A stretch of DNA of 57,195 nt from a virus: the IMG/VR virus record IMGVR_UViG_3300042544_000814, positions 1 through 57,195 of that record; one strand, 5' to 3'. The notes beneath the pieces are model-generated. The model was not told the origin of the DNA and ran no database searches. It saw nothing but the letters and a program-made list of their open reading frames with translations. Positions 43,675 to 57,195 of the stretch are shown here, one piece after another. The translations under genes were made by a program, and so were the position numbers. Each line of letters begins with the position of its first letter. Position 1 is the first letter of the stretch.

Positions 43675-45303
43675 TTATTCTGAAGAACTACCCTCGCCCT
43701 GGGCATTTCGTCCAGAAACTGTTGATGGACTGTCAGAATTATTATTAGTTCTTTCAGTATCACGCTGCCTGCTCTGTGCCGTATTGGCTCTAGTATCCGC
43801 TGCCTGACGAGACGACATTTCAAAAGGCTCGTCGCCGTCTGATCTTTGTGGTAGTCCAAGAACCTCACGTGCCTCGTTAGGGACCATAATCTGAGTCTTA
43901 ACGTAACGCTCTAGAATCTGAGACTGAGTAATCTCATCAGTTAGAGTTAGCTCATTAAACTTAAGCTCTAGGATGTCTGTCTTTTCCTTGATAATTCTGC
44001 TGATAAGCTTCTCAATGTTTCTCTGCATTGGTCTAGCTACCTGCTCCTTAAAGGTACGATCCTGAGATAGCGAAGCTGCAATATTTGACGCATCGCTACC
44101 ACCTATCTTAGATAGCGGTACCTGGTGAGCAATCAGGATGTCATCACGGTTACGTAGTCGATACTCATTAAACGATGCCTCTTGAACTCCATTCTCAATT
44201 GGCTTCATCTCGAACTCTACCTTGTTTGTGTCAGAGTCTCCTGGCAAAGGAATGTATAGGGTTCTGTGCGACTGCCCCTTCAGGTTAGTCTGAAGGAATC
44301 TAAACAGCTTGTCCTCTGCATCAGAAGATAGTTTTGCACCCTTAAGTGTTACAACGTAGCGTGGCACAGCCTTATTGCTAAAGTAGTCAATGTTGTACTG
44401 TGATGCTAGCTGATCTCCATGTAGGGAGGATACTGCAGACATGATATCTGGAATACCGTAATAAGTGTTTAATGGAGAGTACTGCTTAAAGTGAATAATC
44501 TCATTTGGTCTTGGATCTCCAGTTATGGGGTTTGCATTCTTTGCCCCAAAGTTTCTAAAGTAAACAACCTTTTGACCAATAATCTGAACAAAGCCATCTT
44601 TAAGTCTACGAACACGCATAGTTGTAGCTGGAATGTGACCAACGTAACCAATCTCACCACGAATAGTTCTACCAATTTCAAGGTAGCCATTTCCAGTTGC
44701 CTCGTAATCAGTTAGCACTTTCATCATTACATTGGTAAAAGACTCTTCGTCATTGAGGTTTTCAATCCAGTCACGCATCTCAATCTTCATGCGTTCGATT
44801 CTCTTACGTGCCTTGTCCCTGGCTGAATCGTTATCATTAGACTCAAGGGCCATCATTGTTCTGTCAGAAACATGGAAGTCGTAGCCAAGACCAACGATGT
44901 TCTCTACCTTAGCATCAATGGCTGCGTGGTTTGCAAAAGAGGTGTCATAGAAGTTGGCTAGCTCATACAGATTCCAAGGAGGAGTAATTACATCAAACAT
45001 GCCGTAGCCGTTACGATAAACTGTACCTGGATTTATTTCCTTAGAGGTGGCACCGTCAACACCACGATTTACCGCCAAGGCACTATCTAGGTATACCGCT
45101 GAGTCTGTTCTTACATCATTTGGAATTGCCATATCATAGGCTTTTGCCATTCTGTCAGTACGACGCTTAAAGTTTTTATCCATTCCAGCTAGTGACTTTA
45201 GATCATCCCAGCTCTTGTTAAATGGATCCTGTGCCTTAAAGATATCTTCTTGCTTTTCCAAATCTGGTAAGCCAATATCTCTGATGTAGTAGTCTTCGGC
45301 CAT
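43675..45303 (-). CDS. portal protein
   Basis: A 542-residue portal of the HK97/PBSX-like group, forming the dodecameric DNA channel at one capsid vertex. The sequence contains ELANFYDTSFANHAAIDAKV in the N-terminal wing, the YEATGNGYLEIGR and VGHIPATTMRVRR segments, EIIHFKQYSP followed by YYGIPDIMSAVSSLHGDQLA, and a late helical stem region (EKLISRIIKEKTDILELKF), all typical of portals. The C-terminus is low-complexity and Ser/Asn/Gln-rich. The start overlaps the preceding stop as TAATG. Confidence 0.94.
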   Translation of the reverse strand: MAEDYYIRDIGLPDLEKQEDIFKAQDPFNKSWDDLKSLAGMDKNFKRRTDRMAKAYDMAIPNDVRTDSAVYLDSALAVNRGVDGATSKEINPGTVYRNGYGMFDVITPPWNLYELANFYDTSFANHAAIDAKVENIVGLGYDFHVSDRTMMALESNDNDSARDKARKRIERMKIEMRDWIENLNDEESFTNVMMKVLTDYEATGNGYLEIGRTIRGEIGYVGHIPATTMRVRRLKDGFVQIIGQKVVYFRNFGAKNANPITGDPRPNEIIHFKQYSPLNTYYGIPDIMSAVSSLHGDQLASQYNIDYFSNKAVPRYVVTLKGAKLSSDAEDKLFRFLQTNLKGQSHRTLYIPLPGDSDTNKVEFEMKPIENGVQEASFNEYRLRNRDDILIAHQVPLSKIGGSDASNIAASLSQDRTFKEQVARPMQRNIEKLISRIIKEKTDILELKFNELTLTDEITQSQILERYVKTQIMVPNEAREVLGLPQRSDGDEPFEMSSRQAADTRANTAQSRQRDTERTNNNSDSPSTVSGRNAQGEGSSSE

Positions 45304-49415: not shown

Positions 49416-50009
49416 CTATTTTTCTAAATGCCAAAAAGCTGGTGACATATACTTGATTCCACTAGCTATTGGCATGGACTCATGATAGAAAGGTGGCACG
49501 GATGGAAAGATTATCAAACTTCCAGCTTTTGGCTTTATTTTTACCCCTTGCTCTGAAAAGCTAATCTCTCCCCCAGAGTAGTTATCATTTAGGTAAAGAA
49601 CAGCAGATATATTTTCTGTAGTTGGCTCTGGGCCTGAATCTGTGTGAGGTCCCATAGATGCCCCAGTAAAGTATTTGCTTATGCTAATTGGCATCTGAAC
49701 CCCCAGATCAACGTTTAGCTTTTCTGCATAGTCCTTGCCGTATACGGACAGAGTCCTTGTTAATACATCATACGCATCACGAATTTTACCGCTAGCAGAG
49801 TCATAAAATGAGACATCTGTTGTTTTTCTTTTTCCAAAGACATAGGAGTCTCCACTTGACATCCAGGTATGCCACTTAGAGATAAGAGATTCTTCTGATA
49901 TATAGGAGTCTGTGCTTTCTATAAGATACACAAGCTCTTCTGGGTTTGGTATTACGGACTCATAATAAAATATTTTTTCCGCAAAAACTTTAGGACTTTT
50001 TAGTCTCAT
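49416..50009 (-). CDS. 2-oxoglutarate/Fe(II) oxygenase A (P4H-like)
   Basis: A 197-residue oxygenase of the prolyl-4-hydroxylase-like jellyroll group. The iron triad is His122-x-Asp124 (GPHTDSG) and His176 (FYHESMP), with Lys186 (SGIKYMSP) in the place of the 2-oxoglutarate-binding basic residue. The core strands are present (SAVLYLNDNYSGGEISF, then PKAGSLIIFPS). It overlaps the next oxygenase gene by 20 bases. Substrate unknown. It is the last gene of the cassette and the shortest, lacking much of the N-terminal extension seen in the others. Confidence 0.88.
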   Translation of the reverse strand: MRLKSPKVFAEKIFYYESVIPNPEELVYLIESTDSYISEESLISKWHTWMSSGDSYVFGKRKTTDVSFYDSASGKIRDAYDVLTRTLSVYGKDYAEKLNVDLGVQMPISISKYFTGASMGPHTDSGPEPTTENISAVLYLNDNYSGGEISFSEQGVKIKPKAGSLIIFPSVPPFYHESMPIASGIKYMSPAFWHLEK

Positions 50010-50655
50010 TTCCCCACTCTTCCTTTTGCTTGTCTTGCTTAGGCTGCTCTGAACGCTTTAGCATTTCTAACTCCTCAAGGAATCCTTCTGGATATTCAAT
50101 ATCTGCGTAGTCCCACGATAATAGCATGGTATATCTTTCTCCAGAGGTAACCTCAGTTACTGCATGAACATTATCGATACCAACATCAAACACAATTGCG
50201 GTTCCAGCCTTTGGGGCAATAGAGATTTCGTGATCCCTAAACTTTAGGTTTCCACCTTCATAGTTGTCATTAAGATAAATAATTGTGACAAGCTTATTGT
50301 CTTGCCAAGCATTTGGAGTACCGTCTAGCTCTGCATTATCGGCATGGTATCCTGCGTAGGCACCTGGAAGCCATTTATGTGCACTTAGGGTGAGGTTTCG
50401 GACTGGTCTGCCCATAACATCTTCAGCGACTTCTTTTAGGGAATGTCTTAGTTCATGGAAAAAGTTTGGATTAAACAGTTCAATGTCAAGCTCGTTTTTA
50501 GGTCCGTTTGGATCCATTACACGAGCATTAAAAAAACAAGTTTTTTGCCACAAAGAGTCTCCAGCATCATAATAATCTATAAGCTTTTCACACTCTTCGC
50601 TTGATAAAAAGTTAGGTATTTCTACTACATCCTGCTTATGAACAATTTTTTCCAT
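49990..50655 (-). CDS. 2-oxoglutarate/Fe(II) oxygenase B (P4H-like)
   Basis: A 221-residue oxygenase. It has the iron triad His104-x-Asp106 (GYHADNAE) and His164 (DNVHAVTE), with Arg174 (SGERYTM) for 2-oxoglutarate. The strand motifs are VTIIYLNDNYEGGNLKF and APKAGTAIVFDV. The N-terminus (VVEIPNFLSSEECEKLIDYY) is the helix pair common to P4H-like enzymes. A lysine/glutamate-rich C-terminal tail extends past the core. No clear ribosome-binding site, so it may depend on coupling to the gene five bases upstream. Confidence 0.9.
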   Translation of the reverse strand: MEKIVHKQDVVEIPNFLSSEECEKLIDYYDAGDSLWQKTCFFNARVMDPNGPKNELDIELFNPNFFHELRHSLKEVAEDVMGRPVRNLTLSAHKWLPGAYAGYHADNAELDGTPNAWQDNKLVTIIYLNDNYEGGNLKFRDHEISIAPKAGTAIVFDVGIDNVHAVTEVTSGERYTMLLSWDYADIEYPEGFLEELEMLKRSEQPKQDKQKEEWGNETKKS

Positions 50656-50660
50656 AATGA

Positions 50661-51386
50661 TTAGGCAAGCTTATTGCCCTTTTTCCACTCCTCTTTCTGT
50701 CTAGCTTGTTGCTCACGAACCTTCTTTGTTTCTTCTTCCCACCAATTTTTCTTTTCCTCTGAGTATTCTGCATCTGCAAAATCCCAGAAGGATACCATAG
50801 TATACCTAGTACCTTCAGTAATTTCTGATACACCATGTATATTTTCTACGCCACCAGGAAAAACAATTAGTGCATACGGTGTTGGCTTAAACGAGATATC
50901 GTGATCTGGGAAATATAGGTCCCCTCCCTCATAATTACCATTAAGGTATAGAATTGCCACATACTTATTAATTTCAAATGCATTAGGCTCGCCATGGTTG
51001 TCGGAGTTATCGGAGTGAGGGTTTGCAAAACCACCTACATCCCACTTTTGGGCATGTGATGTGTTTGCCTTTACTTCTCTACCAAAAACAGCCTCTACAT
51101 AGGTCTTAAACTGCTCACGCAAGTTATCGAAAAAATCTCCAGGCAAGCTATAGTCTGCGAGCATTGGGTCGTTTGGCTGCAAGCCCATGCCAGAAGAGCC
51201 GTAGAAAGCAATGTCTCCCCACATCTCAGCCTTTGCCTCAAAGTAATTAATCATATTTTTAGCATCTTCTGGAGTCACAAAGTTTGGAATTTCTACAATT
51301 CTATTATCTTTAATTCCTAGAATACTATTCTCTATTGGCTCATCTTTATAATATATAAAGCTATCAATATTTACATTATTATGCAT
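50661..51386 (-). CDS. 2-oxoglutarate/Fe(II) oxygenase C (P4H-like)
   Basis: A 241-residue oxygenase with His124-x-Asp126 (NPHSDNSD), His184 (ENIHGVSE) and Arg194 (EGTRYTM). Core strands YVAILYLNGNYEGGDLYF and ALIVFPGG are present. It is closest to oxygenase B within the cassette: both share IVEIPNF-like starts, a W-D-ADAEY-type segment after the core, and charged C-terminal tails. GGAGG precedes the ATG. Substrate unknown. Confidence 0.9.
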   Translation of the reverse strand: MHNNVNIDSFIYYKDEPIENSILGIKDNRIVEIPNFVTPEDAKNMINYFEAKAEMWGDIAFYGSSGMGLQPNDPMLADYSLPGDFFDNLREQFKTYVEAVFGREVKANTSHAQKWDVGGFANPHSDNSDNHGEPNAFEINKYVAILYLNGNYEGGDLYFPDHDISFKPTPYALIVFPGGVENIHGVSEITEGTRYTMVSFWDFADAEYSEEKKNWWEEETKKVREQQARQKEEWKKGNKLA

Positions 51387-52062
51387 TGTCTACCTCCGAG
51401 TTACCGTGGGCAACTATCGTCCAAAAGAATGGGCAAGTGTATCTAATTCCAGATTCTATTGTAGTTATGCCATGAATATAGTTCATGTCTCCTGGGAAGA
51501 AATATGCTGCCCCAGCCTTTGGCTTAAATTGAATATCTTGGTTAGGGAAGTACAGCTCTCCACCCTCGTAATCATCATTTAGATAAATAATAGTTGCGAT
51601 ATCATACCAAGGAAAGTCGTTGGGCTTTCCTGCGTTTTCACCTTCGTGAAGTTCTTTATCTGCGTGTGGCATTTGAAGGTTTCCTGGAAGCCAGCGAACA
51701 AGAGCTGGAGATGTTGGATATGCCGTTACGTTAAAGAAATTGTCAATCTCAACCTTAAGTCTCTTAACGATTGATCTAATGGTCTGTACGGTTTCAGGGC
51801 TCGTCTGATTAATAGTTGGATAAGTCGCTACACGGCCATCCCAATATCCAGAGTCATAGATTACGGTTCCGTCTTCATTGTAGTGGGTTTGGGTAATATC
51901 CCAGCTTTCATTATTACGGATAAAGCCATTGAGTGCCTGAAGTTCTTCTTCAGTTAAGAAGTTCTCAAGTGTGCCGATCATTTCTGGACCATCTCCAAAA
52001 AATCCTGATGGCGTAATTGATACGGGGTTTTGATTATGATTATTAGTATATTGATTTTCCAT
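51379..52062 (-). CDS. 2-oxoglutarate/Fe(II) oxygenase D (P4H-like), leaderless
   Basis: A 227-residue oxygenase with His133-x-Asp135 (MPHADKEL), His197 (NYIHGITT) and Arg207 (SGIRYTC). The core has ATIIYLNDDYEGGELYF and PKAGAAYFFPG. An Asn-rich start and an insert near residues 136-150 (KELHEGENAGKPND) distinguish it. Its ATG lies six bases after TGA-TATAAT with no ribosome-binding site, so it begins the second transcription unit of the cassette. Confidence 0.9.
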   Translation of the reverse strand: MENQYTNNHNQNPVSITPSGFFGDGPEMIGTLENFLTEEELQALNGFIRNNESWDITQTHYNEDGTVIYDSGYWDGRVATYPTINQTSPETVQTIRSIVKRLKVEIDNFFNVTAYPTSPALVRWLPGNLQMPHADKELHEGENAGKPNDFPWYDIATIIYLNDDYEGGELYFPNQDIQFKPKAGAAYFFPGDMNYIHGITTIESGIRYTCPFFWTIVAHGNSEVDNA

Positions 52063-52068
52063 AAACCA

Positions 52069-52077
52069 ATTATATCA
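52069..52077 (-). promoter_or_regulatory. extended -10 (TGA-TATAAT), leaderless promoter in the oxygenase cassette
   Basis: TGA-TATAAT then TGGTTT then ATG of oxygenase D, in the 17-base gap after the DUF6065-like gene. The predicted transcription start coincides with the start codon. It would drive oxygenases D, C, B and A. Confidence 0.55.
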
Positions 52078-52079
52078 CG

Positions 52080-52808
52080 TCAATCGTACTTTCGTCTTTC
52101 CCAAACATCACGCTGATAAATCCCTCCGCTTGGCTTTCTATACTTAAAGCTATTTGCCATATTCTTTGTGTATAACTCTGCAGGGTTTTCTATTACTATC
52201 TCAGTTTTCCAGTCCTCACGCTTGAAAGGAATTATTTGGGCATACGGAGTTCCTGCTGGTATTACACCAGTAAACCCCTTTGCTATAAAAAATGGCATTG
52301 TTCCTGGAAGACTTACCTTATCGTTATCAATTATTCCGCTAGTTGTCAGGAATGGCAGATCAAACCTGTTAAATGGTTGGGAGTATATTGCACTATATCC
52401 AGATGGTAGCTCTACTGCCCAATCTGCCCACCAAGCAAAGTGATGCTCATAATATCCCCATGGAACCTCAAACTGTGGCATGGGATCTCTAACATTAACA
52501 AAATCTTTATACTGATCATCTAGAATTTTTACTGATATTACTCCAGCATCATTCACGTAGAATTCAATATCACAAGGTGTCCTATAGACATATCCAGTTG
52601 TCATAATATCATAAAGTGCTGGGCAAGCTTTCCATGTAACTACCCTGCCACCATCGGGGGCAGTCCATGGCTCACCGTCAGGTCTCATGGCATATCTGTC
52701 AGCATCTTTATACCAAACTGGAATAGCCCTAGCTGTTGGGGTTGGCTTTGATATGCTGTCTTCGTTTAGCCAAGACCTATTTGAAATAAATTTAATAGAC
52801 TTAGCCAT
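52080..52808 (-). CDS. DUF6065-like protein, first paralogue
   Basis: A 242-residue protein within the oxygenase cassette. It contains ARAIPVWYKDADRY, a TWKACPALYDIMTTGYVY segment and a C-terminal region (NRFDLPFLTTSGIIDND, then FTGVIPAGTPYAQIIPFKRE) that resembles the end of the adjacent DUF6065 protein, so the two are probably distant paralogues. Family function is unknown; the beta-rich composition suggests a cupin-like or jellyroll fold. It overlaps its neighbour by eight bases. Confidence 0.65.
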   Translation of the reverse strand: MAKSIKFISNRSWLNEDSISKPTPTARAIPVWYKDADRYAMRPDGEPWTAPDGGRVVTWKACPALYDIMTTGYVYRTPCDIEFYVNDAGVISVKILDDQYKDFVNVRDPMPQFEVPWGYYEHHFAWWADWAVELPSGYSAIYSQPFNRFDLPFLTTSGIIDNDKVSLPGTMPFFIAKGFTGVIPAGTPYAQIIPFKREDWKTEIVIENPAELYTKNMANSFKYRKPSGGIYQRDVWERRKYD

Positions 52809-53511
52809 TTGTAACTTTCATTACGATCTTCTTGACCTCGTGCTCACCAACAGATTCCCCAGTATGATCAACAGCATCACGATAGTAGTGTGTCCAGTGT
52901 CCTGCGGAATTCTTTTCCTGAGATGCTTCTGCTCTATTCTGCATTCTTTCTGACCACTCAGCAGTTTCCCACAATTCTGGTGTACCGCTTACAACATTAA
53001 GGCTATAAGCCTGTACGTCTTTTAATGATATTGGCAAAATTGCTGCAATTGGAGTATTTGCTGGAATGGTAATTACTTCATTTGCCTTGTTAACTATCCA
53101 GGCAAGCGGAAAATCATTTTCTAATACTGATGTGCTTAATAAAGTAGTAAAGCACTGTGTCCCCTCTATAAATTGATTTGGAACTGGCATTGTTAGCAAC
53201 GATACATTTTTTTTAGAAGAAAAATATATTCCAGTATTAAAGCTTATGGTTCTATTTCCTCTATGAGGATGAACGTACCTCTCTCCAGAAAGGATGGATA
53301 TATGGCTAGAAGTTGAGTCATTTATTCCGTCCCAAATAAATGATATATCTTCTGGAAACGAAAGATACCAACCTAAACGGTTTGCTAAAGAAACTGGAAA
53401 GCACTGATATGCGTGTCTATCAAAGGTTGCATCCATCCAATCTCTTTTCAGTGGAAGCTGATCTATGTTTGCAGAATGGCTACCAAGTTTGTAGACTGTT
53501 ATGTCTTTCAC
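52801..53511 (-). CDS. DUF6065 family protein
   Basis: A 236-residue protein with the signature of DUF6065: RDWMDAT, followed by RHAYQCFPVSLANRLGW, then IWDG, FNTGI, LLTMPVPNQFIEG, and the late AWIVNKANEVITIPANTPIA and ILPIS segment. The family is widespread in phages and bacteria with no proven activity. The GTG start at 53511 overlaps the stop of oxygenase E. Co-occurrence with six oxygenases suggests it delivers or presents the substrate, but that is only a guess. Confidence 0.72.
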   Translation of the reverse strand: MKDITVYKLGSHSANIDQLPLKRDWMDATFDRHAYQCFPVSLANRLGWYLSFPEDISFIWDGINDSTSSHISILSGERYVHPHRGNRTISFNTGIYFSSKKNVSLLTMPVPNQFIEGTQCFTTLLSTSVLENDFPLAWIVNKANEVITIPANTPIAAILPISLKDVQAYSLNVVSGTPELWETAEWSERMQNRAEASQEKNSAGHWTHYYRDAVDHTGESVGEHEVKKIVMKVTNG

Positions 53512-54215
53512 TAATTACCTGTCTCTGTGTAAAATTCTGGCTTATGGAACTTCTCTGAGTAATCAAGCATTGTAACTATTGAGAATTTTGTTCCAGAGTG
53601 TACGGGCATAGCACGGTGTGGGTACATAAAGTTAGATGGGAAAAGGTATAGGTCTCCCGCCTTAGCCTTGATGTTTAAATTTTGAAGCCTAAAGAAAAGC
53701 TCTCCACCTTCGTAGTCATCATTTGGATATGACACTGCAGAAAGAACACAGTTATAAGAATATCCGTTATCGTGATGTTCTTGGAAGTGTTGACCTGGAC
53801 CATACTTGATAAAGTTCATAGCTTCCCAATATCTAAGCTCTCCAATATTATGCATCTTGCAGTAATGCTTTACAGCCTGAAGCTGTCTAAAGTAGACCTC
53901 ATCCCAAAGCTTACGTAGCTTATCTGCTGCCTCGCCCTGGTGCTCAGCAATATCTGTTTTCTTATATTTAAAATCTTTGCAGTCACGGTATTCTGGAATT
54001 TTCATGCCGTAGCCAACCATGGCCTCCTGATATTCATAATGATTGTTTGGGTCGTCTAAGACCTCTTCTAGTCGATTAATTATATCCATATCTTTTGGAA
54101 GTACGTCACGGTAAACAAGAATACCACTACCAAGATCTTCAACAGAAGACCACGTAATTTCATCTATTTTATAAAAATCTTGAATTCTTTTATTTAAATC
54201 TTCTTGATCAGACAC
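53511..54215 (-). CDS. 2-oxoglutarate/Fe(II) oxygenase E (P4H-like)
   Basis: A 234-residue oxygenase with His147-x-Asp149 (QEHHDNG), His200 (MYPHRAM) and Lys210 (SGTKFSI). Core strands are CVLSAVSYPNDDYEGGELFF and AKAGDLYLFPSN. The start is GTG at 54215 with AAGGAG upstream. A long N-terminal helical domain (about 130 residues) precedes the core, and it is most like oxygenase F. Substrate unknown. Confidence 0.9.
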   Translation of the reverse strand: MSDQEDLNKRIQDFYKIDEITWSSVEDLGSGILVYRDVLPKDMDIINRLEEVLDDPNNHYEYQEAMVGYGMKIPEYRDCKDFKYKKTDIAEHQGEAADKLRKLWDEVYFRQLQAVKHYCKMHNIGELRYWEAMNFIKYGPGQHFQEHHDNGYSYNCVLSAVSYPNDDYEGGELFFRLQNLNIKAKAGDLYLFPSNFMYPHRAMPVHSGTKFSIVTMLDYSEKFHKPEFYTETGN

Positions 54216-54224
54216 TATGTCTCC

Positions 54225-54959
54225 TTAGTAAGTTAGTCTATTCATATCTTCTTGACGATAGTTGAAGTTTCTTAATCCTCCACGATCATTATAATCAGTC
54301 ATAATTACGATTGAATACTTTGTTCCAGAAATCATGTCGTTTGATGCATGCTCATAAATATACGTAGATGGGAAGACAACCACATCACCCTTCTTTGGCT
54401 TTAGGGTCAGATTAAATCTAGGAAAGTATAGCTCTCCTCCCTCATATCCTTCATTTGGAAATGCAACTACAGAGATTGTTGTAACATATGCTGGACCATG
54501 ATCAGCATGGATCTTAAAGTGAGTTCCTGCCCCGTCGTACTTAACAAAGTTAAATGCCTCAAAGAAGTTTACTCCAACACCCCAGTACCTGCCGTAATCA
54601 TCTACGTTTGGACTGATAGACCTAAAAGCCATCTCATGCATTTCGTATAGCTTAGAGTTGTGTTCGTCTTTTGGGCCAAGGTTGCTAGTGCTAACCTTAA
54701 AGTCTAGGCACTTCCTAGCCTCTTCTAGTACATCATCAGCCTCTGTTACCCTAGCACCCTGCCAGGAATACCTTGTCTGACCATTAAGGTTTCCTTCAAG
54801 CGTGTCAATAATATAATCGCAGAGGTCACCGCTCATAGCATTATTATAAACATTAATGCCAAGTGCTGGATTACTTACTAAGACTCCTGCAGGAGTTACT
54901 CTAGATGGCATTCTATTTGAGTCTGTTTCTGATCTATCTTTTGTTAGCCAAGTATTCAT
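54225..54959 (-). CDS. 2-oxoglutarate/Fe(II) oxygenase F (P4H-like)
   Basis: A 244-residue oxygenase, first gene of the cassette. Iron ligands are His151-x-Asp153 (IHADHGP) and His204 (YEHASND), with Lys214 (SGTKYSI). The core has TISVVAFPNEGYEGGELYF and PKKGDVVVFPS. The ATG lies seven bases after TGC-TATAAT and directly after a hairpin that separates it from the tail gene upstream. It resembles oxygenase E in core and basic residue. Confidence 0.9.
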   Translation of the reverse strand: MNTWLTKDRSETDSNRMPSRVTPAGVLVSNPALGINVYNNAMSGDLCDYIIDTLEGNLNGQTRYSWQGARVTEADDVLEEARKCLDFKVSTSNLGPKDEHNSKLYEMHEMAFRSISPNVDDYGRYWGVGVNFFEAFNFVKYDGAGTHFKIHADHGPAYVTTISVVAFPNEGYEGGELYFPRFNLTLKPKKGDVVVFPSTYIYEHASNDMISGTKYSIVIMTDYNDRGGLRNFNYRQEDMNRLTY

Positions 54960-55019: not shown

Positions 55020-55778
55020 CTAGAACGGTCCACCAACGCCACCAAGGAAGTATGGTGGGAAGTAAGGTGGGAAGTATGGTCCAAACGCTGGGAAGAATGG
55101 GAAGAACGGTGGGAAGTACGGGAAGCTTGGTGGGAAAAACGGTGGGAAGAATGGTGGGAAGAACGGAGAAATAGTTGTTACGCTATTAGAATTAGCAGAG
55201 TATTCACCAACGCCATTTGAATTTTCAGCACGGATCTGGTATGTCTGAGCTGTGCCACCTTCCTGGGTAATGTTAGTTGTGCTAGCAGGAGCATTTACTG
55301 TACCAGTCTTGCTGTCAGATGATGTCCAGCGATATAGCGTAATTGCCTTACCACCAGTTGCTGGAGCAGTCCAGTCAAGCTTGTCTTGATTAGTCTGAGC
55401 AGTAGCTGTTGGAGCTGACATGGTTGCAGGAACTGTTGTAGCTGTAACAGTAGTGGTAGACGATGCTGGAGATGTTCCAGCTGAATTTGTAGCAGTTACG
55501 CTAATTGTGTAAGTAACATTAGAAGCAAGGCTTTCTACAACAATAGGAGACGACGATCCCGTTGCAGTTCTAGTTGTCTGACCAGCTGCTGTAGCTGTAA
55601 CGGTAAAGGATGTGGCTGCTGGTGATAGTGCTGGGAGTTCAAAAGCTACGCTAGCTGCTCCGTTATTAAATGCTCTATTTGTACCTACGTCAGTAGCAAC
55701 TACGTTAATAGGTGCTAGAGGCTCTAGAAAGTCATTTGATGCTTGAGACTTTCTACCTGTTCTTTTTCCAGCTGCCAT
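55020..55778 (-). CDS. fibronectin-III-like tail protein with Pro/Phe/Tyr-rich C-terminus
   Basis: A 252-residue protein. After a basic N-terminus (AAGKRTGRKSQ), two fibronectin type III-like domains span about residues 25-200 (TSFTVTATAAGQTTRTATGS, then SNVTYTISVTATNSAGTSP, then GGKAITLYRWTSSDSKTG). The last 48 residues consist almost only of Pro, Phe and Tyr (PFFPPFFPPFFPP and similar). In residues 205-244, 17 of 40 are Pro and 20 are Phe or Tyr. It sits next to the tail-fibre-like gene and just upstream of six P4H-like oxygenases. Probably a virion surface protein and a candidate oxygenase substrate. AAGGAAGG precedes the ATG. Confidence 0.75.
   Translation of the reverse strand: MAAGKRTGRKSQASNDFLEPLAPINVVATDVGTNRAFNNGAASVAFELPALSPAATSFTVTATAAGQTTRTATGSSSPIVVESLASNVTYTISVTATNSAGTSPASSTTTVTATTVPATMSAPTATAQTNQDKLDWTAPATGGKAITLYRWTSSDSKTGTVNAPASTTNITQEGGTAQTYQIRAENSNGVGEYSANSNSVTTISPFFPPFFPPFFPPSFPYFPPFFPFFPAFGPYFPPYFPPYFLGGVGGPF
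55047..55166 (-). repeat. tandem 12-base-type repeat encoding FFPP/YFPP units
   Basis: Degenerate tandem repeats (plus strand GGTGGGAAGAAC-like) code for alternating PP and FF or YF pairs in the tail protein. The near-regular nucleotide repeat suggests the unit number can change by slippage or recombination. Confidence 0.8.
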
Positions 55779-55797: not shown

Positions 55798-57195
55798 TTA
55801 TGCCGTTAGGTCGCCGTAGACCAACCAAGTGTTTTCTGCTCGCTTTAGAAGTGTTGCAGAAGACCACTGGGTCCTTAGCTTAAGTCCTGGAGTTGCATTG
55901 ACTGTAACTCCACCTGCACCTGCAATTGTAACCTGACCAGTTCCAGTCTGAATAATATCAATAGTTGTTCCTACTGGGTAGGCTACTGAAGAATTTGTTG
56001 GAATAGTCAAGGTGGTTGCAGAAGACTTGCTAATCTCAACAATTGTATCACGTTCATTTAGATTAGAAAGTGTGTATGAGTCTGTCTTTTCAGCTATAGT
56101 AGTAATCGATGGAACACCCTGCTTTGTTTGAGTGCCGTCTGAGAATACGACACCAGTTGCCTCTAGGTTTCCAACAACAAGTGTTTCTCTTGTGGCGTTT
56201 GTGACATCTACTACGTTTGAAACTGGGTGTGGGACATTAGAAATAAGCTTCCACTTCTTTCCATCGCTTACGTCACGGAAGAATCCAGAGTGAAGGTGGC
56301 TTCCCTCAGTTCCTCCAACTACTCCAGTTGCTGCCAAGAAACCTACGTCTAGAACATCTTCATCGTATTGTCCAGATGCTAGGTAAATTAGTGGGTCTGA
56401 CACAGATAGATCTGTTACATCTATGGTAGTAGTTGTTCCAGAGACCGTAAGGTTTCCTTCGACTATTAAGTTTGTCTCTACAGTTACATCACCAGTAAAT
56501 GTTGCACCAGCAAGCGATGCCTTTGCATCCAGTGCAGTCTGAGTTGCTGCAGAAACTGGCTTGTTAGCGTCAGAGGTATTGTCAACGTTACCAAGACCTA
56601 CGTGTGACTTAGTTACACCAGCAACGGTACCTGTAAAGGTAGGGTCAGCCGTAGGTGCCTTAGCATCTAGCTGAGTCTGAATAGCAGAAGTGACACCATT
56701 TACATATCCAAGCTCAGTAGACGAGACATCTCCGACAGAGGTAGTGCTTGGAAGAACTACGGTTCCTGTAAAGGTTGGTCCACTTAGTGGTGCATATGTA
56801 GATGATGCAGTAGCAGATGCAAGCTTGGCATCTAGCTGACCTTGAATTCCAGAAGTTACGCCATTCACATATCCAAGTTCTGTAGAAGAAACATCACCAA
56901 TTGATGTACTTGTTGGCAATACTACGGTTCCAGTAAAAGTAGGATTAGAGGTTGGAGCCTTGTCATCTAGCTCGCTTTGAATGCTTACGTCAGCTGCAGC
57001 TAGGTCATCTAGTTGCCCCTGGATAGATGCTGTAGCACCAGACAGGTACTCGGCTTCTGTTACCGTAAGGCTTCCAATTCTAGCTGTAATGCCTGATGAA
57101 ATAGAAGAGTTCATTTCCGAGGCATTGACTAGATAGGATGTGCTGCTCCATGCGTCAGTGCCATTTCCAATCTTAAACTTTCCTGTGGTTGTGTC
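55798..57195 (-). CDS. tail fibre-like protein, 5' end beyond window
   Basis: The frame is open to the right edge: upstream of an internal ATG at 57114 the translation continues through TGKFKIGNGTDAWSS and SYLVNASE, sequence typical of tail-fibre head-binding regions, so the true start is outside. The middle contains two to three tandem repeats with TFTGTVVLP and SSTELGYVNGV. A DVTVETNLIVEGNLTVSG stretch resembles trimeric fibre shafts. The C-terminus ends in a beta-rich domain. Likely a fibre or adhesin component. It is followed 19 bases later by the fibronectin-like gene. Confidence 0.8.
   Translation of the reverse strand, partial: DTTTGKFKIGNGTDAWSSTSYLVNASEMNSSISSGITARIGSLTVTEAEYLSGATASIQGQLDDLAAADVSIQSELDDKAPTSNPTFTGTVVLPTSTSIGDVSSTELGYVNGVTSGIQGQLDAKLASATASSTYAPLSGPTFTGTVVLPSTTSVGDVSSTELGYVNGVTSAIQTQLDAKAPTADPTFTGTVAGVTKSHVGLGNVDNTSDANKPVSAATQTALDAKASLAGATFTGDVTVETNLIVEGNLTVSGTTTTIDVTDLSVSDPLIYLASGQYDEDVLDVGFLAATGVVGGTEGSHLHSGFFRDVSDGKKWKLISNVPHPVSNVVDVTNATRETLVVGNLEATGVVFSDGTQTKQGVPSITTIAEKTDSYTLSNLNERDTIVEISKSSATTLTIPTNSSVAYPVGTTIDIIQTGTGQVTIAGAGGVTVNATPGLKLRTQWSSATLLKRAENTWLVYGDLTA
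56626..56958 (-). repeat. imperfect tandem repeats of about 45-55 residues in the tail fibre gene
   Basis: Two full copies and a partial third (counting from ATG 57114: residues 53-107, 108-152 and 153-163), each starting AP-x4-TFTGTV and running through SSTELGYVNGV to QLDAK. Visible at both DNA and protein level. Typical of triple-helical or beta-helical fibre shafts and prone to copy-number change. Confidence 0.8.

Follow-up and report, generated by a model that had tools for sequence, protein, structure and literature searches.

Aromatic-proline tract of a phage tail protein as a candidate substrate of the prolyl-hydroxylase-like enzymes encoded beside it

The closest precedent for the locus analysed here is the prolyl 4-hydroxylase of PBCV-1 (vCPH, 5c5t), a viral prolyl hydroxylase for which viral proteins are the likely substrates; the enzyme and its viral substrates were reportedly described by Eriksson in 1999. 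However, PBCV-1 is a eukaryotic algal virus, whereas phages of the type studied here carry 5-10 paralogs in one operon beside an aromatic-Pro-Pro tract of a tail protein. Cyanophages encode 2OG-Fe(II) oxygenases of PHROG 61, the same PHROG to which the enzymes of this cassette belong. A tblastn search with g2, the second oxygenase of the cassette, gave matches in 92 named records, all with cyanophage or marine-phage names, but the identity was below 60% in 92/92, and no match to the tract protein was found in named phages. Bacterial prolyl 4-hydroxylases (P4Hs) resemble the cassette enzymes in fold (Z 18.6 for the predicted g2 model against 4iw3, the P. putida enzyme with EF-Tu) and in sequence (E 0.007 for 3itq; we take 3itq/5hv0 to be a B. 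anthracis-type P4H), although they are single genes with cellular substrates, as exemplified by 4iw3 bound to EF-Tu. Like the tract, collagen-like phage fibres have Pro-rich repeats within a tail protein and a possible function as a stalk. Unlike these fibres, the tract is half aromatic, and the collagen-like Gly-X-Y triplet repeat that was looked for in it was absent, a single Gly being present in 40 residues.

According to a 2022 paper the viral use of prolyl 4-hydroxylase 'remains cryptic' (PMC9301287), and a 2026 survey describes phage oxygenases as widely like EGLN3 (PMC12774648). Searches of the open-access PMC literature listed no pairing of prolyl hydroxylases with a tract in a phage tail protein. 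Prolyl-hydroxylase-like enzymes are common in aquatic phages, and for those of the present cassette one protein segment can be named as the probable substrate.

The window, i.e., the whole stretch of DNA that was analysed, is an IMG/VR virus record of 57,195 nt with a G+C content of 42%. The tract protein is encoded on its minus strand at 55020..55778 (252 aa, ATG start) and combines an FN3-like N-terminal part, in which residues 42-111 form an FN3-like domain (55446..55655, minus strand; Pfam fn3, E 1e-7), with a C-terminal aromatic-proline tract at residues 205-244 (PFFPPFFPPFFPPSFPYFPPFFPFFPAFGPYFPPYFPPYF; 55047..55166, minus strand, as derived from the residue numbers). Just upstream of this gene lies that of a tail-fibre-like protein (55798..57114, minus strand; PHROG minor tail protein, 6.3e-24), which is open at the window edge. 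The window also encodes a portal protein (43675..45303, minus strand; phrog_12, 1.8e-55), which served as the backbone marker, a head protease, RNR, DNA polymerase and DnaB. An earlier note on this DNA had counted 17 prolines and 20 aromatics in 40 residues, and the composition of residues 205-244 (17 Pro and 20 Phe/Tyr) proved this to be exact; in the 204 residues ahead of the tract, Pro and aromatic residues number 10 each. Neither Lys nor Arg occurs in the tract. It had also spoken of a repeated FFPP/YFPP segment. Such units are indeed present, but the repeat is not uniform, since FFP and SFP/FGP units are mixed in. The Pro/aromatic score, defined as the smaller of the Pro count and the aromatic count in 30 residues, was 13 for the tract gene and at most 5 for all other ORFs of the window. 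The possibility that the tract is a chance or low-complexity artefact was rejected, as it belongs to a real conserved gene with 297 relatives.

Six 2OG-Fe(II) oxygenases are encoded at 49416-54959 on the same strand as the tract gene and follow it in the order of transcription. The earlier placement of the tract gene directly upstream of six P4H-like enzymes was thus correct in the direction of transcription, and all six are intact and exceed the curated cut-off of PF13640. Starting from the tract gene and all on the minus strand, the cassette comprises g1 (54225..54959; PF13640, 3e-9), g2 (53511..54215; 2e-13), a DUF6065 protein (52801..53511; PF19541, 4e-30), a phrog_7084 protein (52080..52808; 1.3e-31) which by alignment is distantly related to the DUF6065 gene, g3 (51379..52062; PF13640, 4.1e-7), g4 (50661..51386; 6.7e-8), g5 (49990..50655; 1.5e-12) and g6 (49416..50009; 9.7e-12). 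The DUF6065 and phrog_7084 genes therefore separate the second oxygenase from the third. Across loci the order was g1, g2, g3, (extra), g4, (g5 or extra), g6, with g1, g2, g3, g4 and g6 as the stable members. The DUF6065 and phrog_7084 proteins, both of predicted dUTPase-like fold (from a model of DUF6065), are constant in the cassette and are present in cassette-free phages too (L536, L538).

A scan of viral contigs with the tract protein yielded 297 relatives, and the best 80 of 297 were retained. Most of these have a long FFPP/FFP/YFPP array in the C-terminal part; the protein then stops or continues into a Cys-rich end or a Hint/intein-like domain. Pentapeptide FxFTP-type tails were found in 6/80 of these best relatives (L022, L023, L024, L044, L052, L064). 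Within the sequence available, the six had 0-1 oxygenases downstream, and FFP-type loci with enough flank mostly had 5-10. In GTDB genomes we found 18 stretches; four MAG loci had long tracts, and most of the others were three-unit, chance-like ORFs. Three of the four long-tract MAG loci had oxygenases in the stretch and the fourth lay at the stretch end. The same FN3 protein also occurs with another large class of aromatic tails, made of single-Pro repeats such as FxFTP and FGAFGFSP (L200-L319; L539, L540, L639, L641); the phages with these tails are without the oxygenase cassette.

The tract-bearing ORFs were grouped according to the part that precedes the tract, and both Pro-Pro and single-Pro tails were present in the largest group (234 ORFs). 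For this FN3 family, at least 6 kb of downstream sequence was required, identical copies were removed and oxygenases were counted within 8 kb. Proteins with aromatic-Pro-Pro tails (n=73) had a median of 7 oxygenases, and 68/73 had at least 4 within 8 kb downstream, whereas those with single-Pro (FxFTP) tails (n=27) had a median of 1, with at most 2 in 27/27. The FN3 proteins with single-Pro tails occupy the same place in phages that lack the cassette. Four of the five low-count Pro-Pro rows of the family are extra tract genes in cassette records (L016, L188, L497, L512). The fifth is L010, which has a partial cassette of g1 and g2 only and a tract of almost all single-Pro units (FFPP 1, FFP 6). 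The idea that g1 and g2 read FFP and g3-g6 read FFPP is unsupported: L010 is its one case, and L014 and L046, without FFP units, still keep g1 and g2. In a second, smaller ORF group the difference between Pro-Pro and single-Pro tails was not significant (7 vs 7, p 0.09), and the sign test on the FN3 tree, which retained 86/100 rows after those with fewer than 150 residues ahead of the tract had been dropped, yielded 2 contrasts, a number too small for significance.

The pairing was also evaluated on common portal backbones. For the first portal lineage 222 relatives were found, the best 80 of 222 (75-100% identical) were kept, and the 36 records that were long enough were searched whole. Both the tract and at least 5 PF13640 matches were present in 12 records, neither in 20, and one only in four, three of which are cut contigs (Fisher 5.6e-6). 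Among these four, G131 and G135 had the cassette only, both contigs being cut inside it, and the tract only was present in G136/L010, with 2 enzymes, and in G155, whose contig is cut at the tract. The strict FxFTP pattern was found in 0/36 records; cassette-negative portal relatives retain an orthologous FN3 protein with FGFSP/FGFAP-type tails (L539, L540, L639, L641). The portal tree had 29 informative rows, among them the 13 of the 20 'neither' records that cover 10 kb or more upstream of the portal gene. On the best tree the state of the tract switched 9 times, and supported branches had at least 4 switches; in the supported contrasts the cassette changed in the same direction as the tract (mean 3.6 of 4) and never in the opposite one, although four contrasts are too few for significance in a sign test (p 0.125). 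In a distant second portal lineage (599 relatives, best 80 of 599 kept, 40 records searched), 30/40 records had at least 5 enzymes upstream of the portal gene. An aromatic-Pro-Pro tract was present in 29/29 cassette records in which the tract place was covered; the contig of the thirtieth, G179, is cut. With two patterns, the tract was found in 0/10 of the other records. G059, which belongs to these ten, has an FGFTP tail and, over the whole record, 5 PF13640 matches, of which 2 lie upstream of the portal gene. Tract and cassette were thus gained or lost together among the related phages examined.

At the level of whole records, the pattern sets were samples and the counts refer to the matches listed. 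Among these, 38/41 records of at least 30 kb with the FFPP pattern (three FFPP-type units) had PF13640 and 33/41 had at least 5 copies, vs 35/50 (34 over the cut-off) and 5/50, respectively, for records with FxFTP repeats (Fisher 3.7e-12, with related records kept in). The five FxFTP records carry 5 oxygenases each, counter to the pairing. Among records chosen by an oxygenase motif, 9/25 had at least 6 PF13640 copies, and an aromatic-Pro-Pro tract was present in 8/9 of these (G096, G098, G107, G116, G101, G114, G100, G104). In the ninth, G095 (L528), the 7 oxygenases lie in groups scattered along the record, and the pattern searches of this record detected no aromatic-Pro tract. G100 and G104 carry the cassette without the FFPP pattern, but FFSPP/FFAPPG tracts are present in them; the looser FFP pattern matches in G101 and G114, and the contigs of G155 and G179 break off at the tract or Hint end. 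A back-to-front control pattern gave 0 matches beside every FFP/FFPP match except one in G116. For the looser FFxPP pattern, 7/21 records with a match had 1-7 control matches, probably owing to repeat codons that look similar when reversed.

Tracts without oxygenases were infrequent. Among the matches listed, 3/41 tract records (G005, G033, G036) had no PF13640 match and 2/41 (G010, G011) had one, i.e., 5/41 had 0-1 oxygenases. The tracts of G005, G033 and G010 are linkers inside another protein, and that of G036 lies at the contig end, where our own profile finds one oxygenase. The earlier note had predicted that phages with the oxygenases would carry the tract and that phages lacking the tract would lack them. 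The data bear this co-occurrence out strongly for two portal lineages and one FN3-protein family, and the substrate reading built on it is partly supported as a whole; outside these lineages, the half of the prediction by which the absence of the tract means the absence of the cassette is weaker.

The repeat units, here called the repeat dialect, vary by genome (FFPP/FFP, FFSPP/FFAPPG, HFPP, FFGPPN). At least two tract ORFs were present in 13/28 stretches read, and in these 13 genomes the main and the second tract of one genome were more alike than in shuffled pairings (0/5000 shuffles). The dialect is shared between the tracts in L645 and L629 (HFPP), L647 and L655 (FFAPP) and L652 (FFAPPFFPPS), and it differs between the first and second tract in L651, L625 and L626. 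Gene conversion between the repeats could be an alternative source of a shared dialect. We then correlated pairwise tract similarity with gene similarity in 35/38 cassette loci. The correlation was 0.58 for g3, 0.56 for g2, 0.45 for g4 and 0.41 for g6, vs 0.25 for the portal protein, 0.14 (n=27) for MCP and 0.26 (n=30) for the FN3 domain of the same polypeptide. The partial correlation of the all-enzyme average, given FN3, portal and DUF6065, was 0.49 (0/2000), with permutations that leave some relatedness in. Non-oxygenase cassette genes also tracked the dialect (DUF6065, 0.40; phrog_7084, 0.77, n=26), and g1 (n=13) had no dialect signal beyond portal (0.03). This implies that the dialect follows the whole cassette and not the oxygenases alone.

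Taken with the family of the enzymes, these data make the tract a strong, though unproven, candidate substrate of the hydroxylase-like enzymes. The reading that we favour, and hold to be probable, is that the cassette is a dedicated modification machine which hydroxylates prolines of the C-terminal aromatic-Pro-Pro tract of a tail-tip/adhesion protein. Its main rival, which we consider unlikely, is that the tract and the cassette are mere neighbours in an exchangeable tail-tip module and are moved jointly by recombination, the enzymes modifying some other target, e.g., another tail protein. The adjacency of the tract gene to the cassette, the gain or loss of the pair as a block in the portal tree and the tracking of the dialect by DUF6065 and phrog_7084, which lie in the same block, would all be expected of such neighbours. 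However, the FN3 domain tracks the dialect poorly (0.26) in spite of being part of the same polypeptide, whereas g3, kilobases away, tracks it well (0.58). Moreover, additional tracts, often of the same dialect, occur in cassette genomes on the far side of the FN3 gene, 6-10 kb away, and in phages without a cassette the same position is occupied by FN3 proteins with single-Pro tails. Joint transfer thus accounts for the co-gain, but less easily for the weak tracking by FN3 and for the extra tracts beyond the FN3 gene.

The nature of the enzymes was assessed from their motifs and from a structural model, which was made for g2 only. On inspection by eye, the HxD...H iron triad and the 2OG-binding R/K were visible in 6/6 window enzymes; the triad pattern was present in 591/626 g1-g6 domains and in 225/331 domains outside these groups, and an alignment of 57 oxygenase sequences had seven invariant columns, among them H147, D149 and H200. 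The best structural neighbours of the predicted g2 model (pLDDT 93.4) were prolyl hydroxylases (VIA Z 19.5-16.2). Apart from 4iw3, these include 6f0w, a Trichoplax PHD (Z 19.5, 196 residues, 3.1 A), 3gze, an algal P4H with (Ser-Pro)5 (Z 19.4, 175 residues, 2.2 A), and 5c5t, the PBCV-1 vCPH (Z 17.0, 158 residues, 20% identity). By family and triad the cassette enzymes, and g2 also by its predicted fold, are of the prolyl 4-hydroxylase type of 2OG-Fe(II) oxygenases, although a fold is no proof of substrate.

According to another explanation, the oxygenases modify DNA bases or nucleotides in the manner of TET/JBP, with the dUTPase-fold DUF6065 proteins as partners and the tract unrelated to them. 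Two of the six oxygenases had weak Tet_JBP (PF12851) matches (18.2 and 16.6 bits vs a cut-off of 34.9; E 0.0015 and 0.0049), and the predicted model of DUF6065 is dUTPase-like (VIA Z 10.6, 118 residues, 2.7 A; Foldseek 6ky8, E 9.5e-4). However, no PF12851 match exceeded the cut-off in any of the six window oxygenases, the listed fold neighbours of g2 are prolyl hydroxylases with the exception of one putative oxygenase, and the presence of the cassette follows the type of tail repeat, all of which makes this explanation very improbable. Hydroxylation of non-proline residues of the tract (Phe, Tyr, His), or of both kinds, is hardly to be expected either: 2OG oxygenases of this superfamily have varied substrates, and the aromatic residues and the prolines of the tract are equally constant, but the FxFTP tails are strongly aromatic and yet without a cassette, the difference being Pro-Pro, and the nearest solved folds are prolyl hydroxylases.

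In the favoured reading, the tract would form the C-terminal stalk or tail of the tail-tip/adhesion protein, and the 5-10 paralogous phage prolyl hydroxylases would hydroxylate the prolines of its aromatic-Pro-Pro repeats before virion assembly. Where a second tract-bearing tail protein is present, it would also be hydroxylated. Candidate repeat-peptide substrates would be FFPPFFPPFFPP, FFAPPGFFAPPG and HFPPFFPPHFPP. Hydroxylation may increase the solubility, stiffness or stickiness of this polyproline-like and very hydrophobic segment, and through it the repeat dialect would stay matched to the enzymes. That the enzymes act on proline, that the tract is their substrate and that the virion is affected is in each case what we infer. 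If this is true, phages encode the means to hydroxylate tail proteins of the virion in a patterned way, and their loci would provide naturally paired variants of enzyme and substrate for studies of prolyl-hydroxylase specificity. A wider picture, which we offer tentatively and judge to have a little less than an even chance, is that many uncultured water phages have a virion stalk which is aromatic and rich in hydroxyproline, and for which 5-10 hydroxylases and two dUTPase-fold partners read a phage-specific, co-evolving dialect (e.g., FFPP, FFAPPG, HFPP) carried by one or several tail proteins, as host-range or stability armour; the FxFTP tails would be an enzyme-free alternative on the same protein.

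In addition, the tract of many relatives is succeeded by a Hint/intein-like domain (Hint_2, 1.6e-4; Intein_splicing, 1.2e-3) that ends in HNK or similar. Examples are L013:6101-7477, L529:14948-16273, L023, L025 and L058, and such domains occur both with and without the cassette. Their possible role is self-cleavage or ligation of the tail protein. Some of the second tract-bearing tail proteins have PASTA-like domains (L543:5482-6666, 8.8e-6; L655:9653-12043, 6.3e-5), which hints at peptidoglycan or the cell wall as the target of these proteins.
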